Shown: one piece after another, positions 27,154 to 50,833 of the stretch
Numbering within the stretch: the first letter of the stretch is position 1
Layout: every line of letters starts with the position of its first letter
Source: Caulobacter segnis
GTDB lineage: Bacteria > Pseudomonadota > Alphaproteobacteria > Caulobacterales > Caulobacteraceae
NCBI RefSeq assembly: GCF_019931575.1
Contig: NZ_CP082923.1
Span: 930,001 to 994,000 of the forward strand
Direction of reading: 5' to 3'
DNA length: 64,000 nt
The notes under the pieces: model-generated
Database searches by the model: none
The model's input: only the letters and a program-made list of their open reading frames with translations
What the model was told of the DNA's origin: nothing
Position numbers and translations under genes: made by a program

Positions 27154-29346
27154 TCATCCGTAGTGGATGTCGTAGTCGCCCGCGCCGGTCCCGACCGTCA
27201 GGCCGGTGACGCCGACCAGGCGGATCAGGCCATCGCCCGTATTGGCCGAAGCGCCCATGTTGACGCCGACCGTGCCGTCCTGGGTGTAGACATAGGTGTC
27301 GCCGCCCCAGGTGAAGACCGCTGCGGTGTTGACCGCCACATGGGCCGAGACGGCGATCAGGGCGTCCTGCAGCGAGGTCTTGCCGTCGGCGTAGGTCTGG
27401 ACGCCGGCGGTCATCGCATGGGCCTGGGCGTCCAGGATCAGATGGTCGACGCCCTTCTGGAAGCCGATGATCTGGGGCGGGCCGCTGAGCGTGGTTCCGT
27501 CCTTGATGTGCAGGTTCGACAGGGTCGGCAGCGAGGCGTTGGAGCCCAGGCGGATCGTGTCGGCCCCGGCGCCCAGATAGAGCTTGGCGTCGGCGATGCT
27601 CAGCGACCCCTGGATCACGCCGGCGAAGGTCGCCGTCAGGCTGTTGGTCCCGTCGCCCAGGCGGACGGTCTGGGCCTGGCTGCCGGCCTGGAAGTCGTAG
27701 GACAGGGTCAAGTCGCCGGCCTGGGTGGCGTCGACATTGGTGAAGCTGCCGGCGATCTGCGCGGTCAGGCTGCCCGCGCCGTCGATGGTCAGGTTGGGCA
27801 GGGGACCGCGATAGTTCACGCCCGGGGCGCGGTTGGTCGACCAGCCGTAGATCAGGCCGGCGGTGCTGTCGGTGTCGACATGCAGGAAGAAGGTCCCGTT
27901 GTTGTCCTGGGGACCGTCGGCGATGGTGTAGAGGCCGATCGCGCCGCCGTTGGGGACGAAGACCCCGGGCGCGACCACGGCGTCGGTGGTTGGGGCGCCC
28001 TGGAAGTGCTGCAGGTGCAGGCCGATCCTCGCGCCATTCTGGGGATCGGCCGGGGCGTAGATCACCGTCGCGTTGGCCGTGTCCTTCAGGATCAGGGTCT
28101 GGCTGGCGTCGATGGAGATCGAGCCGCCGGCCAGACTGTAGATCACGCTGGCGCCGGTGAGGCCGGCCGGTATGCCGCCGCTGTGCAGATAGACCGTCTG
28201 GAAGCCGCTGATCGCACCCTCCAGCGCCGCGCCGCCGTTGTCGATGTGCAGGACGTTGGCCGTGCCGGTCGCGGTCACGCTGGTTCCCTGGGCCATGCCG
28301 CCCTTCAGGGTGACGAGATTGCCGTTCGCGCCCAGGGTCACGGTTCCATACTGGGCTGGCACGCCCAGGGTCGCGGTCGAGGCCCCCAGGGTTCCCAGGT
28401 TGAGGATGTCGTGGCCGTCGGCGGTGGTGATCGTTCCGTAGATCGTCCCTGTTACGAAGATCGAGTCTTCGCCCGCCCCCGCGTCGATGATCACCCCGGC
28501 GTTGAGGCCGGCCGAGCCTCGGATGATGTCCCCGTCGGAAGTGGACCTCTGGTCGGAATCGGTCGCCGAGGGGGAGATCGGCTTGTCGGGCGAAGCGGTC
28601 AACACCGCGCCGGTGCTTGAGGGCTGCCGCATCCCATAGCTCGTGATCAGGTCGCTGCGGAAGGCCGCCACGCCGTCGAAGGCCAGATCGGCCAGGAACA
28701 TGTCATTGGCCATTGCGTAGAAGCCGAAGTCGGCCTTGACCGCCTCGGCCATCAGCCAGCCGATCAGCGCCGCCTTGGTTCCCAGACCGCTCAGGCCATC
28801 GCCGCCGTAGCTGGCGAAGTAGTCGGCGCGTGTGTAGTCGACGCCCGCGCCGTTCGACACCTTGGCGTTCAGGATCGCGTCGATCTTGGCCGCGTCCGGG
28901 GTTGAGCCGAAGATCGCCGTATAGGCCTTGACCAGCGTATCGGTGAGGCCGAGCGCGCCGTAGTCGGCGCTGAACCGCGCCTGACCCTCGCCCACCTTGC
29001 CCAGGTTGACCGCGAAGTTGATGTAGCGGTTCTCGGTGTTGAACGACTGGTAGTAAGCGCTGTTGAGGCTGTTGCCGTTGGGGCCGCCGGCCGCGACCAG
29101 GAAGTCGAAGCCGCCCTCGGACGGCAAGCCGCCGGTGAAGAAGCTTTAGGTCAGGCTGGCGACCGAGGTCGTCCCCGCCGCCAGCCCGATTACCTGGCTC
29201 TGGGCGGCCGACAGGGTCAGGGTTCCGGCCTGGACCTGGGCCGACAGGTCGGTCAGCAGGGTCTGGTGGGCGGCCGGGATGTGGGCGTAGTCCGACCGCA
29301 TCACATTGCCGTACCAGGTCTTCAGGGTCTGCAGGGTGGCAGCCAT
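27154..29346 (-). pseudogene. RsaA-like (S-layer family, type I secreted) gene interrupted by one in-frame stop
   Basis: The frame starts at ATG 29346 (MAATLQTLKTWYGNVM). It meets TAA at 29148-29146, then continues in the same frame for about 657 codons to TGA at 27154. The text around the stop, VASLT-stop-SFFTGGLPSEGGFDFLV, aligns with VAIQTYQFFTG...GLDFLV of Caulobacter RsaA, so TAA stands where a Tyr codon is expected. Further RsaA-like blocks follow: NSAYYQSFNTENRYINFAVNL, TKAALIGWLM, and at the C-terminus FTWGGDTYVYTQDG and IRLVGVTGL, the likely type I secretion region. The middle has degenerate RTX-like pieces (GAGEDSIFV, GAGADTIRLG). Full length would be about 730 residues, shorter than RsaA. 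It could be a recent pseudogene, a sequencing error, or a suppressed stop. Confidence 0.8.
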
Positions 29347-29407
29347 CTACGCGCGCTCCGCTCCGTCGCCCGCCGCTCGGCGAGCTCGTCCCTTATGGAG
29401 CGGAGGC

Positions 29408-29464
29408 TATATAGGGTTTACTAAACACCCTCAAGCTGAGCTTTGGAGAATTAAACGCCCTAAG
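29408..29464 (-). promoter_or_regulatory. promoter-like and operator-like sequence upstream of the RsaA-like gene
   Basis: Reading the minus strand, TTGAGG (29434-29429) and TATATA (29413-29408) are 15 bases apart. A palindrome AAGCTGAGCTT (29433-29443) overlaps the upstream edge. It is flanked by two imperfect direct repeats, CTAAACACCCTCAAG (29421-29435) and TTAAACGCCCTAAG (29451-29464). The region is AT-rich compared with its surroundings. Confidence 0.35.
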
Positions 29465-29481: not shown

Positions 29482-32133
29482 CTAGCCGCCGACCTCCACC
29501 CTGGCCGCGACGCCGGCGGGCTTGGCCAGGCCCGGGCGGACGACGGGCTGGCCGCCGCCGATCCAGAGGTCGGCGGCGCCGGGGACGACGCCGCGCTGGC
29601 CCTTGTCGTCGACCGTGCTGAAGGCGGCAGGGTCGAGGGCGAAGGTCAGCTTGCGGGTCTCGCCCTTTTTCAGCGTCACGCGCTGGAAGCCCTTCAGCGA
29701 GCGGATCGGGGCGCCGGCGACGCCGGGGCGGGTGACGTACAGCTGGGCCACCTCGTCGCCCTCGCGGCCGCCCGTGTTGGTGACGTCGACCGAGACGGTC
29801 AGCGGCTGGCCGGGCTTGATCTTGGCCGCGCTCAGGACGGGCTTGCCGTACTTGAAGGTGGTGTAGGACAGGCCATAGCCGAACGGGTACAGCGCCTCGC
29901 CGCCGAAGTAGCGATAGGTGCGGCCGGCCATCGTGTAGTCCTTGAACGGCGGCAGCTGCTCGGCCGAGCGGTAGAAGGTCACCGGCAGGCGGCCGGCCGG
30001 GCTGTAGTCGCCGGCCAGCAGGCCCGCCACCGCCGTCCCGCCCTCGCCGCCGGGATACCAGGCCTCGACGATGGCCGGGATCTTCTGGTCGGCCCAGTTC
30101 ACCGACATGGCTGAGCCGTTGACCAGCACCAGCACGGTGGGCTTGCCGGTCGCGGCCAGGCCTTCCAGCAGCTTCTGTTGCGGGCCGGGCAGGTCGAGGC
30201 TGGTGCGGTCGCCGCCGGCGAAGCCCGGGGCGTGGACCGGCATCTCTTCGCCCTCGATCCGGGCCGACAGGCCGCCGACGAAGACGATCAGGTCCGCGTC
30301 CTTGGTGGCCGCCACGGCCGTGTCGGCGTTGTCGGCGGGCTGGCTCCAGGTCAGGCGCTGGCCGCCGCGACTGCTGTCCTGGCGCGCCTCGATGGTGATC
30401 GCATAGGCCTTGCCGGCGGTCAGCATGATGGTCTGGGCCTGGCCCGGATCCTGGATCGTGTCCCAGGCTTCGGCGACCGACTTGCCGTCGATCTTGATGC
30501 GCCAGCCGCGCTCGCCGTCGATGGCGAAGCTGTGCGGGCCGCTCTGCGTCGGCGTGACGAAGCCGGTCCAGCGGATCGAGGCCTGCCGCGCGGCCCGCGT
30601 CGGCCAGCCCCAGCGGAAGTTGGCGTTGGCGTCGACGCGCGTGGCGGTCGGCGCGCCGGCCAGCTCCAGCCCCGCGAACTCCTCGACCTTCAGCCCCTTG
30701 GCCGCGCAGGCGGCGTCCTGGCAGAAGATCGCGTCCGGAGTCGGCGCGCTGGGCGGGCCGATCAGCCCCGTGCCCGCGACATAGGTCACCTTGGCGCCGG
30801 GAAAGCGGTCGCGGATCCCGGCCAGCACCGTGACCGGCTTGGACGGCGTGCCGTTGTAGTTGCCGACCAGGGCGTCGACGCTGTCGGCGTTGGGACCGAT
30901 CACGGCGATCGACTTCGGCGCGGCCTTCAGCGGCAGGAGGCCGTCGTTCTTCAGCAGCACCATGGCCTTTTGCGCGGCCTTCAGGGCCAGGGCGCGGTGG
31001 GCCGGCGTGTCGTTGTCGGCGGCGGTGATCTTGCCCCAGGGCCCCGAGCCCGGCGGATCGAACAAGCCGAGGCGCATGCGGCCCTCGAACAGGCGGCGGG
31101 CGGCCTGGTCGACCTCGGCCTCGGTCGCCAGGCCTGAGCGCACGGCCTCGACGATGGCCGGGGCTTCGACGCCGTTCGGGCCGCCGAAGTCGCACAGCAG
31201 GTCGGTGCCCGCCTTGACCGTCACGGCGAAGGCCTCGGCGGCGGTCTTGCGATAGGCGTGCGAGGTCGGCAGGTAGACGTCGGCGATGGCGGCGCAGTCC
31301 GAGACCACGTGGCCGTCGAACTTCCACTGGCCGCGCAGCTTGTCCTTCAGCAGCATGTCGCTGGCGCAGGCCGGCTGGCCGTCGACGGCGTTGTAGGCGC
31401 ACATCACCGACTGGGCCTTGGCCTGGGTCACCAGGGCCTCGAAGGCCGGCAGGTAGGTGTCCTCCAGGTCGTGGCGCGAGGGGTGGATGTCGTCGCGGTG
31501 GCGGTCGGCCTCGGGCCCGCTGTGCACGGCGAAGTGCTTGGCCATGGCCAGGGTCTTCAGGTGGTTCAGGTCGGGACCCTGCAGGCCCTCGACGAAGGCC
31601 GAGCCCAGGGTCGCGGTCAGGACCGGGTCCTCGCCCCAGGTCTCCTGGCCCCGGCCCCAGCGCGGGTCGCGGAAGATGTTGATGTTGGGTGACCACACCG
31701 TCAGGCCGCGATACTGGGCCGTCGAGCCGTCGGGCGCGACCTTCTCGACATATTTGGCGCGGAACTCGGTGGCGATCGTGTCGGCGATCTCATGGACGAA
31801 CGGCGCGTCCCAGGTGGCGGCCATGCCGATCGCCTGCGGGAAGACGGTGGCCTCGCCGGCCCGGGCCACGCCGTGCAGCCCCTCGTTCCACCAGTTGTAG
31901 GCCGGGACGGAAAGGCGCGGGATCGCGGGGGCGGCGTGGCGCAGCTGGCCGGCCTTCTCTTCCAGCGTCATGCGCGAGACCAGGTCGGCGGCGCGCTGGG
32001 CGGCGGGGAGGCTGGGATCCTGGTAGGGCTGGGGCTTGCCGGCGGTCTGGGCCAGGGCCGGCCCGACCAGGGCGGCGGCCAGGATCAGGGCGCTCAGCGA
32101 GGGCGCGATGGTCTTTCCAGCGATCTGGCGCAT
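29482..32133 (-). CDS. secreted GH3 beta-glucosidase/beta-xylosidase with inserted PA14 domain
   Basis: The 883-residue protein has a signal peptide (ends GPALAQ) and a family 3 glycoside hydrolase catalytic domain: WWNEGLHGVAR, WSPNINIFRDPRWGRGQET, KHFAVHSGPE, and the nucleophile Asp in DGHVVSDCAAI. The second domain is interrupted at about 465-600 by a PA14-like insert (RWTGFVTPTQSGPHSFAIDGERGW), and a fibronectin III-like domain closes the protein (VTNTGGREGDEVAQLYV). The NINIFRDPRWGRGQET version is typical of enzymes acting on beta-xylosides or beta-glucosides. A LacI-type operator sits 63 bases upstream, implying control by a sugar. The likely job is oligosaccharide breakdown in the periplasm or at the surface. 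Confidence 0.94.
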   Translation of the reverse strand: MRQIAGKTIAPSLSALILAAALVGPALAQTAGKPQPYQDPSLPAAQRAADLVSRMTLEEKAGQLRHAAPAIPRLSVPAYNWWNEGLHGVARAGEATVFPQAIGMAATWDAPFVHEIADTIATEFRAKYVEKVAPDGSTAQYRGLTVWSPNINIFRDPRWGRGQETWGEDPVLTATLGSAFVEGLQGPDLNHLKTLAMAKHFAVHSGPEADRHRDDIHPSRHDLEDTYLPAFEALVTQAKAQSVMCAYNAVDGQPACASDMLLKDKLRGQWKFDGHVVSDCAAIADVYLPTSHAYRKTAAEAFAVTVKAGTDLLCDFGGPNGVEAPAIVEAVRSGLATEAEVDQAARRLFEGRMRLGLFDPPGSGPWGKITAADNDTPAHRALALKAAQKAMVLLKNDGLLPLKAAPKSIAVIGPNADSVDALVGNYNGTPSKPVTVLAGIRDRFPGAKVTYVAGTGLIGPPSAPTPDAIFCQDAACAAKGLKVEEFAGLELAGAPTATRVDANANFRWGWPTRAARQASIRWTGFVTPTQSGPHSFAIDGERGWRIKIDGKSVAEAWDTIQDPGQAQTIMLTAGKAYAITIEARQDSSRGGQRLTWSQPADNADTAVAATKDADLIVFVGGLSARIEGEEMPVHAPGFAGGDRTSLDLPGPQQKLLEGLAATGKPTVLVLVNGSAMSVNWADQKIPAIVEAWYPGGEGGTAVAGLLAGDYSPAGRLPVTFYRSAEQLPPFKDYTMAGRTYRYFGGEALYPFGYGLSYTTFKYGKPVLSAAKIKPGQPLTVSVDVTNTGGREGDEVAQLYVTRPGVAGAPIRSLKGFQRVTLKKGETRKLTFALDPAAFSTVDDKGQRGVVPGAADLWIGGGQPVVRPGLAKPAGVAARVEVGG

Positions 32134-39160: not shown

Positions 39161-40540
39161 ATGCGCCTGCCTCTCGTCCTCGCCGCCGCCGCCCTGCTGA
39201 CCGCAAGCGTCGCTCACGCCGAAACGCCCGCCCCTTCGGCCGACCAACCGCTGCTGCGGACCATCGCCGCCGACGTCGATCCCAAGGCGCTGGAGAGCAC
39301 GATCCGCTCGCTGGTCGGCTTCGGCACCCGCCACACCCTGTCGGACACCCAGTCAAACACGCGCGGCATCGGCGCGGCCCGCCGCTGGGCCAAGGCCCGG
39401 TTCGAGGCGATCTCCAAGGACTGCGGCGGCTGCCTGACGGTCGAAACCCCGGCCCAGACCTTCACCGGCAAGCGCGCGCCCAACGGCGTCGAGGTGGTGG
39501 ACGTGCTGGGGGTCCAGAAGGGGACGACCGATCCTGGCCGGGTGATCATCATCGCCGGCCACCTGGACAGCCGGGTGTCGGACGTCATGGACTTCACCAG
39601 CGACGCGCCGGGGGCCAATGACGACGCCTCGGGCGTGGCGGCGGTGCTGGAGGCGGCGCGGGTGCTCAGCAAGCACAAATACGCCGCCACCCTGGTGTTC
39701 GCGGTGCTGTCGGGCGAAGAGCAGGGGCTGTACGGCGGCAAGGTGCTGGCCGACTACGCCAAGGCCCAGGGCTGGAAGGTCGAGGCCGACCTCAACAACG
39801 ATATCGTCGGCAACAGCCGGGGCCAGAGCGGGGTGATGGACAACACCCACGTGCGGGTGTTCTCGGAAGGCACCAAGGCGGTCGAGACGCCCGAGCAGGC
39901 CAACGGCCGCCGCTACAATGGCGGCGAGGTCGACAGCCCCTCGCGCAACCTGGCCCGCTACCTGGACGGCTTGGCCGACCGCTACCTGACCAATTTCGAC
40001 GTGGTCATGGTCTATCGCACCGACCGCTACGGCCGGGGCGGGGACCAGGTGCCGCTGCTGGAGGCGGGCTATCCGGCCGTGCGGGTGACCGAGGCGGTCG
40101 AGAACTACGACCGCCAGCACCAGACCCTGCGCACCGAGAACGGCAAGGTCTATGGCGACAAGATCGAGGGCGTCGACTTCGCCTATCTGGCCCAGGTGAC
40201 GCGGCTGAACACCGTGGCCATGGCCAGCCTGGCCTCGGCGCCGGCCCCGCCGTCGGGCGTCAAGATCGAGGGCGCGGTCAGCCCCGACACCAAGGTCTCG
40301 TGGACGGCGACGCCGGGCGCGGCCGGCCACAAGGTCTGGTGGCGCGGCACCACCGACCCGACCTGGCGCTTCAGCCGCTGGGTCCCGGCGGGAACGGGGA
40401 CGACCCTGAAGGACGTGGTGATCGACGACTTCTTCTTCGGCGTCTCGGCGGTGACCGCCGACGGCTGGGAGAGCCCGGTGGTGTTCCCGGGCGCGGCGGG
40501 CAGCTTCGAGAGCGTGGTCCCGACACCCAAGCAGCCCTAA
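39161..40540 (+). CDS. secreted M28-family zinc peptidase
   Basis: The 459-residue protein has a signal peptide (ends SVAHAE) and an M28 aminopeptidase domain. Zinc and catalytic residues are in IIAGHLDSR, PGANDDASGVA, VLSGEEQGLYGG (catalytic Glu and zinc Glu) and ADLNNDIVGN, with a late His in YDRQHQTL. A fibronectin-like C-terminal domain starts at about residue 365 (PSGVKIEGAVSPDTKVSW). It is a probable periplasmic or extracellular aminopeptidase. Its TAA overlaps the stop of the convergent acetyltransferase gene. Confidence 0.93.
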   Translation: MRLPLVLAAAALLTASVAHAETPAPSADQPLLRTIAADVDPKALESTIRSLVGFGTRHTLSDTQSNTRGIGAARRWAKARFEAISKDCGGCLTVETPAQTFTGKRAPNGVEVVDVLGVQKGTTDPGRVIIIAGHLDSRVSDVMDFTSDAPGANDDASGVAAVLEAARVLSKHKYAATLVFAVLSGEEQGLYGGKVLADYAKAQGWKVEADLNNDIVGNSRGQSGVMDNTHVRVFSEGTKAVETPEQANGRRYNGGEVDSPSRNLARYLDGLADRYLTNFDVVMVYRTDRYGRGGDQVPLLEAGYPAVRVTEAVENYDRQHQTLRTENGKVYGDKIEGVDFAYLAQVTRLNTVAMASLASAPAPPSGVKIEGAVSPDTKVSWTATPGAAGHKVWWRGTTDPTWRFSRWVPAGTGTTLKDVVIDDFFFGVSAVTADGWESPVVFPGAAGSFESVVPTPKQP

Positions 40541-42888: not shown

Positions 42889-43515
42889 CTAGCGCGCGAC
42901 CTTGCCGTAGGCGCTGATGGCGGCGGCCATTTCCGGCGTGGCGTCCACGGGCGCGGCCGGCGCGGCGTCCGGCGCGGCGCCGCCGGCGAGGTGGGCCTGG
43001 GCCTCGGCCGAGAGGGTGACGCTGTCGCGCGGTTCGGCCGGCGTGGGCTGGACGCTTTCCAGATCGGCCTGCAGCCGGCCGCGGTACTCGGAGACCGAGG
43101 CCGGGCCCTTGCTGTCGCTGACGCCGACCTGCAGGGAGGCGATGATCGTCTGGTCGGTTTCGGAGAGGCTGTCGAAGGCGTCGAGCGCCTGGCGTTGCGG
43201 CGCGGGCGGCGCGGCGTCGGCTCCGGCCCAGGCCGCGCGCGTGAAGGTGTTGAGCGCCGACTGGATGGTCTTGGCGAACGGCGACTCGGTTAGCGCCTGG
43301 GTCAGGTTGGACCGCTCGGCGAAGCTGGCGCCGTTCCAGCGGTTGGCCAGGGCGTGATAGGCGCTCAGTTGCTGGTCCACCCCGACCGAGCCGGTGGTGT
43401 CGTTGAGCGCCGCCGTCGCCGCGGCGACGCCGCCGGAAGAGGCGAGGGAAGACCGGGCCGCATCAATCGTCGAGGTCTGCGATATCTGCATCTTGCCGGC
43501 AGTTTGGCGAGTCAT
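42889..43515 (-). CDS. hypothetical protein, 208 residues
   Basis: MTRQTAGKMQISQTSTIDAA opens a soluble protein with no signal peptide. Its N-terminal two thirds look helical, and the C-terminus is Ala/Pro-rich. The segment RDSVTLSAEAQAHLAGG resembles the SAEAQ-type motif seen in several flagellum-associated or axial-related proteins, but that alone is not enough to assign a role. The flagellar cluster begins about 2 kb away. Coding is supported by frame and composition only. Confidence 0.6.
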   Translation of the reverse strand: MTRQTAGKMQISQTSTIDAARSSLASSGGVAAATAALNDTTGSVGVDQQLSAYHALANRWNGASFAERSNLTQALTESPFAKTIQSALNTFTRAAWAGADAAPPAPQRQALDAFDSLSETDQTIIASLQVGVSDSKGPASVSEYRGRLQADLESVQPTPAEPRDSVTLSAEAQAHLAGGAAPDAAPAAPVDATPEMAAAISAYGKVAR

Positions 43516-49000: not shown

Positions 49001-50833
49001 ATGACCGCGATCGCCGCACCTACCGCCGCTCTCCCCGCCGCGCCGGCCCCGTCCGCGAGCGCCAAGTCGTCGAACGACGGCTTCGACGCCCTGCTGGCCA
49101 TCGCGGGCCAGGACGACGAGGCGCCCGCGCCCCGCGCCTCGCGCTCGGAAAGCAAGAGCGAGCCCCGCGAGGACCGCTCCCGTGAAGACCGCGACGTGAA
49201 GACGGCCGACAAGCCGGCTCGCGACACGTCCAAGGCCGACGCCAAGGCCGCTGATCGCGCCGACGCCGCCCAGGACGCCCGGGCCGATCGCGCCGACGCC
49301 GCCGGCAAGGCCGCCGACCGGGCCGCCGACCGCGCCTCGGACAAGGCCGACGCCACCCAGGACGCCAAGACCGACAAGGCTGACGCCGCCGGCGACAAGG
49401 CCGACGCCGCCGCCGACAAGGCTTCGGACGCCGCCCAGGTCGATACGACCGACGCCGCCGCCCAAGCCGCCGCGGCCCAGGCGGCCGCCACCCTGATCGC
49501 GGCCATGACCACGCCCGTGCAAGCGCCGGTCCAGGTCGAGCCGACCGCCGACGCCCAGCCGGCCGTCGAGGCCGCGGGCGCCGACCAGGCCGCCGACTTC
49601 ACCGCCGCCGTCGCGGCCGCCCAGACCGCGCCGGTCGCCGCCCAGGCGGCGCCGGTGGCTCAGGAAGCCCAGGCGACGACGGCCCAGCCGACCGCCGCCC
49701 AGGCTCAGCCGACGGCGACGACCGCCCAGGCCGCCGCGCCGCAAGGCCAGGCCGTGGACGCCGCCGCCCTGGAAGCCCTGGCCCAGCTCGCGACCGAGGA
49801 GCCGACCCCGGTCTCCGCCGAGGATCTGGCCGCGCCGAAAACCGCCGAGACCAAGCCCGCCGCCGACGCCGCCAAGACGGCCGAGGCGCCGAAGGCCGCC
49901 ACGGCCCAGCCGGCCGCGCCGGCCCCGGTCGCCGCGCCTGTCGTCGCCCCGGTCCAGGCCGAGGTCGTCGCCGAGGCCGCGCCGGTCGCCGACGTGGCGA
50001 CGGCCGAAGCCGCCGTGGAAACCGTCGAGGCCGCCGCGCCGGACGTCGCGTCGACCACCACCAAGACCGCCGAGGCCCCCAAGGCCGCGCCGGCGCCGCT
50101 GGCCGCCCAGGCCAAGGCCGCCGACGCCGTGGCCGTCGAGACCGCCCAGGCCGTCACGGCCGTCGCCGCCGGGTCCGCCGGCGCCGGGGGCGAGACGACG
50201 ACCGACGGCAAGGGTTCGGACAACAACAACACCGCGACGGTCGCCGCGATCGACGCGCCCGCCGCGACCGCCGCCGTGGCGGACACCAACGCCCTGGCCG
50301 CGCCGGCCCCGGCCGTCCAGGCCCAGGCCGCCAGCGCCTCGGCCCCGGCCGCCGCGCCGGCCCCGGTGCGCGGCTCGCCCGAGACGGTGGCGGCCCTGTC
50401 GGCCGAGATCATCAAGAAGGCCGACGCCAAGACCACCCGCTTCGACGTCGCCCTGACGCCGGAAGGCCTGGGCAAGGTCGACGTGCGCATCGAGATCGGC
50501 CGCGACGGCGCCCTGACCGCCTCGATGAAGTTCGACACGGTCCACGCCGCCCAGGAGCTGCGCAACAAGGCCGGCGAGCTGCGCCAGGCCCTGGCCGACG
50601 CCGGCTTCAACGTCGCCGACAACGCCCTGAGCTTCGACGTCTCCAGCCAGAACGGCGGCCAGAGCCAGAACCCCTTCTTCGCCTTCCAGGACTTCGGCGA
50701 CCGGGGCCAGCGCGCCTTCACCGGCCGCGCGTTCCAGGCCGCCCTGACCGGCGAGGAAGACATCGTCATCACCCCCGAACTGCTGCCCGGCCTGAAGACG
50801 GCCGCCGACAGCGGTCTGGACATCCGGATCTAA
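49001..50833 (+). CDS. fliK: flagellar hook-length control protein FliK
   Basis: FliK measures hook length and switches the export substrate. The 610-residue protein has a long low-complexity N-terminal region rich in Ala, Asp, Lys, Pro and Gln, including many ADAADKA-like units at about residues 65-150. The conserved C-terminal Flg_hook domain follows at about 465-560 (TTRFDVALTPEGLGKVDVRIE, LRQALADAGFNVADNALSFDV). The identification rests on the C-terminal domain and on its place before flgD and flgE. The ATG at 49001 has only a weak ribosome binding site. It is first in the hook operon. Confidence 0.9.
   Translation: MTAIAAPTAALPAAPAPSASAKSSNDGFDALLAIAGQDDEAPAPRASRSESKSEPREDRSREDRDVKTADKPARDTSKADAKAADRADAAQDARADRADAAGKAADRAADRASDKADATQDAKTDKADAAGDKADAAADKASDAAQVDTTDAAAQAAAAQAAATLIAAMTTPVQAPVQVEPTADAQPAVEAAGADQAADFTAAVAAAQTAPVAAQAAPVAQEAQATTAQPTAAQAQPTATTAQAAAPQGQAVDAAALEALAQLATEEPTPVSAEDLAAPKTAETKPAADAAKTAEAPKAATAQPAAPAPVAAPVVAPVQAEVVAEAAPVADVATAEAAVETVEAAAPDVASTTTKTAEAPKAAPAPLAAQAKAADAVAVETAQAVTAVAAGSAGAGGETTTDGKGSDNNNTATVAAIDAPAATAAVADTNALAAPAPAVQAQAASASAPAAAPAPVRGSPETVAALSAEIIKKADAKTTRFDVALTPEGLGKVDVRIEIGRDGALTASMKFDTVHAAQELRNKAGELRQALADAGFNVADNALSFDVSSQNGGQSQNPFFAFQDFGDRGQRAFTGRAFQAALTGEEDIVITPELLPGLKTAADSGLDIRI

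Follow-up and report, generated by a model that had tools for sequence, protein, structure and literature searches.

How should a gene for a surface protein be read when a single in-frame stop codon interrupts it near the start: as a gene lately inactivated, as one whose stop is read through, or as an intact gene bearing a wrong base in the assembly? The question arises on the minus strand of the window, by which we mean the whole stretch of 64,000 nucleotides analysed (bases 930001-994000 of a one-contig Caulobacter genome of 5,173,281 bases, listed as 100% complete). Sequence and translation agree that a single ATG-started frame runs from 29346 to a TGA at 27156-27154, giving an RsaA-like gene of 730 codons plus the final TGA (27154-29346), and that the TAA at 29148-29146, in the place of codon 67, is its sole internal stop; the sequence-only reading of this locus had likewise described one frame with this one lesion. 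Translation from the normal start still covers 66 codons (29149-29346). After the TAA, the frame continues for 663 sense codons and not for 657 as first counted, the smaller figure being obtained when counting starts at the first start-like codon, a TTG at 29127. This 657-codon remainder serves as a warning against annotation as a separate gene.

When read across the stop, the protein matches the Pfam domain RsaA_NTD (PF19198) at residues 59-241 with an E-value of 8.9e-71 and a score of 237.9 bits, far above the gathering cut-off of 27. The match covers window positions 28621-29172, and the codon-67 stop therefore lies inside the domain. Solved structures that match by sequence are RsaA entries only, the best being 6t72 (the N-terminal domain; E 2.6e-23). 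An AlphaFold model built from five sequences has a mean pLDDT of 60.2, with both ends mostly below 50, and was used for gross architecture only. In this model, the first 240 residues are helical, much of them at low confidence, and are followed by a beta-rich body (about residues 245-640; 27427-28614) in which much of the stretch has a pLDDT of about 80. The C-terminal region (27157-27426), the presumed seat of an export signal, is modelled at very low confidence. The RsaA-like secretion region that had been proposed for this end shrinks to a weak likeness: the last 110 residues agree with the end of the genome's own RsaA at 23 of 78 positions (32.7 bits). A bluetail surface-protein domain falls slightly under its cut-off (19.4 versus 21 bits), and Pfam detects neither an RTX repeat nor a protease domain in the protein.

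The closest known system is RsaA, the S-layer protein of Caulobacter crescentus (PDB 6t72, 5n8p, and 6z7p). Both proteins carry RsaA_NTD at the N terminus; the beta-rich remainder of the window protein, as modelled, also points to RsaA, as the only two PDB fold matches with an E-value below 0.001 are RsaA structures, and the C termini are weakly similar. The window gene differs in its length (730 codons against the 1,026 residues of RsaA), in having no RTX repeat recognised by Pfam, and in lying away from secretion genes. In RsaA, the N-terminal domain binds the O-antigen of lipopolysaccharide. One report assigns binding of lipopolysaccharide on the cell surface to RsaA residues 1-249 (PMC11026435). 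RsaA_NTD is also carried by SapA, the S-layer-associated protease, in which it is C-terminal and stands behind an M10 protease; the window protein, in contrast, has no protease domain and matches only the last part of the SapA model, the part that corresponds to RsaA_NTD, at 223.2 bits against a cut-off of 1200. The genome's SapA is a separate gene that scores above the cut-off of the NCBIfam model (1249.8 versus 1200).

Seven RsaA_NTD matches were found in this genome. One belongs to an uninterrupted RsaA-like gene of 953 residues at 1.251-1.254 Mb, which is followed by genes for a PrtD-type transporter (TIGR01842, 791.9 bits, cut-off 510.15; C1:1254545-1256158) and an HlyD-type adaptor (TIGR01843, 474.7 bits, cut-off 208.65). 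A TolC-type component is encoded at 1.263 Mb (228.6 bits, cut-off 225.15), with a stronger match at 2.03 Mb. The search for a full rsaA with its transporter elsewhere in the genome, which the sequence-only reading had suggested, thus succeeded, and so did its claim of a second RsaA-family gene distinct from the classical one. The window gene (C1:957154-959346) is not beside type I secretion genes, the adjacency expected of RsaA. Because the uninterrupted 953-residue gene adjoins such genes elsewhere, the window gene is one for an accessory surface protein and not the S-layer gene.

The remaining RsaA_NTD proteins of the genome are varied. In four of the seven (L045, L046, L047, and L048, all encoded outside the window), the domain is C-terminal and stands behind FG-GAP repeats, RTX repeats, or the SapA M10 protease; another, short at 480 residues, carries the domain at residues 67-247. 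RsaA_NTD is therefore found at either protein end in this genome. The idea that RsaA paralogues are frequently broken here was rejected after a second and a third paralogue had been traced: the TGA in the second marks where a SapA-type protein with C-terminal RsaA_NTD normally ends and is not a lesion, and the two supposed pieces of the third lie in one open frame of 480 amino acids.

Matches to the window protein occur in at least 24 of 75 Caulobacter genomes, its own included. Among the matches listed, seven other genomes hold a full-length orthologue that is 56%-66% identical, and none of the seven is interrupted by a stop; these orthologues are 718-755 residues long and align from residue 1 to residue 729 or 730. 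They were aligned together with five more distant full-length homologues (39%-45% identical), and all 12 have a tyrosine codon opposite the TAA of the window. Two further copies with near-whole query coverage (G038:C104:149980 and G013:C4:482831), both free of a stop, were left out of this alignment. Among the fetched loci, 37 distinct copies fit a simple sequence motif, to which this count is confined; 36 of them have tyrosine at the position, and the one with a stop is the window gene itself. The tyrosine predicted from the sequence alone is thus borne out, both in the full-length homologues and in the wider set. Each aligned homologue is encoded by a single frame that opens at the upstream start and not at a separate gene start further down. 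That the stop fell on a tyrosine is unremarkable, since 54 of the 147 single-base changes that yield a stop in the frame of this gene begin at tyrosine codons.

With RsaA_NTD itself as the query, 242 matches were obtained in 24 of the 75 Caulobacter genomes, and the window gene is the only one with an in-domain stop among the 150 that were listed. In a draw of 299 genomes from the family, with at most ten candidates scored per genome, 29 genomes have RsaA_NTD matches, and the listed rows include no other in-domain stop; frameshifted copies may escape the protein and domain searches in both genus and family. In the protein search, 15 other rows show stops within the match, at places where the domain search gives no in-domain stop; one of these rows, in this genome, was traced, and its stop is the natural end of the protein.

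The surroundings of the gene are partly shared with its relatives. A gene for ClpB lies about 5 kb from it in the window and is near the orthologue in five of the six genomes examined (a set that does not include G070), being missing from the stretch taken from G072. Directly upstream is a GH3 glycosidase gene (29482-32133), which occupies the same place in G038 and is unmatched in the stretches taken around each of the five other orthologues. Between the two genes is a promoter-like block on the minus strand (29407-29440) that contains the palindrome-bearing element TGTTTAGTAAAC at 29416-29427. Four of the seven orthologues keep its core, GTTTAGTAAAC, exactly; G038 departs from it at a single base, and the G017 and G069 copies have diverged. 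Even when one mismatch is tolerated, TGTTTAGTAAAC occurs nowhere else in the genome, and hence no regulon can be drawn from this palindrome. Folded singly, eight leaders gave differing structures and no conserved hairpin.

That the continuation of the frame past the stop exceeds chance follows from the RsaA_NTD match running across it and from the seven orthologues that align over the full length. A further measure was a codon-usage scan over 166,006 bases of the genome, in which 5,469 stops were examined, 844 of them with 40 open codons on each side. The window's stop ranks fifth. For each of the other six stops in the top seven, an ATG lies no more than about six codons away, the usual arrangement where one gene ends and the next begins; the window's stop, unlike these, has none so close. 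Ranks 8-11 comprise one normal gene junction, two stops with short frames on both sides, and a stop at window position 40539 that closes a frame of 390 codons, beyond which 117 codons run without an early start. The window gene is thus the one clear interrupted gene in the 166-kb sample, in a scan that is blind to frameshifts.

Signs of decay are slight. Relative to G017, protein identity is 66.7% ahead of the stop and 65.3% behind it, and for four other orthologues the two values lie within five points of each other; identity drops after the stop relative to G038 (from 69.7% to 60.8%) and G069 (from 63.6% to 54.2%). The window protein deviates at 17 of the 256 columns that are invariant in the other seven orthologues, inside the leave-one-out range for those orthologues (2 of 241 to 29 of 268), and by our own grouping, 11 of the 17 deviations are replacements by similar residues. 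In relative-rate comparisons, the window sequence shows more amino-acid change than G017 in all four cases (84 versus 63, 78 versus 50, 80 versus 77, and 89 versus 49), whereas those against G038 are split (97 versus 46 and 69 versus 87). There is thus a hint of faster amino-acid change on the window's branch relative to G017, inconsistent relative to G038, and the evidence for relaxed selection on the gene is mixed. The frame has been kept, as has the bulk of the constraint on the protein; the gene was therefore constrained for most of its history, and the stop is either young or false.

Between these two, we consider it probable that this strain has very recently lost an accessory surface protein of the RsaA family to a genuine nonsense mutation, the lesion being absent from relatives in a gene that is otherwise conserved. 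We infer that the base itself is real; the stop, the conserved frame and domain, the intact relatives, and the uninterrupted rsaA with its secretion genes are direct observations. The main rival, which we regard as unlikely albeit well ahead of any other, is that the TAA arose in base calling or assembly, the organism itself carrying an intact gene. A single changed base would then explain everything: apart from it, the frame and the promoter-like block are kept, along with most of the constraint on the protein, and one lesion accompanied by little decay is equally expected from a wrong base. Against an error stand the single contig and listed completeness of the genome, the several neighbouring genes that align in one piece with their relatives, and the stop scan, in which the top matches of the 166-kb sample contain no other clearly interrupted gene, frameshifts being invisible to it. 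The sequence-only reading had left recent mutation, sequencing error, and read-through side by side; the first is now favoured and the second remains, and the evidence speaks against the third.

In its programmed or regulated form, such read-through would yield a small amount of full-length surface protein, and the 663 codons beyond the stop are open and conserved as it would need. The stop is, however, shared by none of the 12 aligned homologues, and the codon is UAA, which one report gives as the least leaky of the stop codons (PMC5289835). No suppressor tRNA was found: neither the 51 Rfam tRNA matches nor ARAGORN, run on the loci covering them, includes a stop-reading anticodon, a search concerned with such anticodons and not with ordinary near-cognate misreading. 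(ARAGORN calls at window positions 43256-43348 and 50023-50118 are absent from the 51 Rfam matches and are probably spurious.) Nor is the RNA after the stop unusually structured, with a z-score of -1.09 and 29 of 200 shuffles folding as well. Programmed read-through is thus poorly supported, and we think it very improbable. The same small likelihood is given to the broader notion of a maintained off-switch, whether by low-level read-through or by an on/off polymorphism selected within the population; if true, few cells would make the accessory coat protein, or its amounts would be small, and the selection might come, for instance, from phages binding to surface proteins. Translation might instead restart beyond the stop, at the TTG (29127) seven codons past it, from where 657 codons remain and the C-terminal region is kept. 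Such a restart after codon 67 would remove the first part of the anchor domain, leaving a protein that might be exported yet shed. This TTG has no Shine-Dalgarno match, later in-frame starts match 0 to 4 bases, and the single upstream-started frame of the aligned homologues also weighs against restarting, which we hold to be scarcely likely. Rather than a new mode of control, the stop is most likely an everyday loss-of-function mutation of recent date.

Under a recent nonsense mutation, the intact protein, as in its orthologues, would have carried RsaA_NTD at its N terminus, followed by a beta-rich body and a C-terminal region with some resemblance to the corresponding part of RsaA. Presumably, the type I secretion system of the RsaDEF type encoded at another place in the genome would have exported it, and the N-terminal domain would have attached it to the cell surface. 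In the present sequence, ribosomes would stop after 66 residues, within the anchor domain, and the resulting fragment, devoid of the export region, would probably never reach the surface. No effect on the S-layer is expected, as the genome has a separate rsaA, free of interruption, together with secretion genes.

Loss of this kind has a precedent in the genus. A premature stop in rsaA has deprived the laboratory strain CB2A of its S-layer, and in its derivative JS4038, in which 152 pseudogenes are annotated among 4,090 genes, a frameshift in rsaA leads to a stop at residue 360 (PMC12896265). As in these strains, an RsaA-family gene of Caulobacter would have been lost through a premature stop; in CB2A and JS4038, however, the S-layer gene itself is hit, whereas the window's in-frame stop, at codon 67, strikes an accessory paralogue. 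No paper on the window gene was noticed in the open-licence literature, which is not to claim that none is in print. On its own, the case carries little weight, amounting to the loss of one strain's accessory surface protein or to a wrong base in an assembly.

Of more use is what the analysis shows, in passing, about the family. The share of genomes with an RsaA_NTD match in the family draw (29 of 299) is of the same order as the 7.8% of Caulobacteraceae species for which one publication gives an S-layer, the two measures being different (PMC12700997). Single Caulobacter genomes hold up to 29 (G058) and 27 (G046) RsaA_NTD matches, partly in close succession, as at G046:C1:397333-402022, and the anchor domain of RsaA looks to be widely reused.
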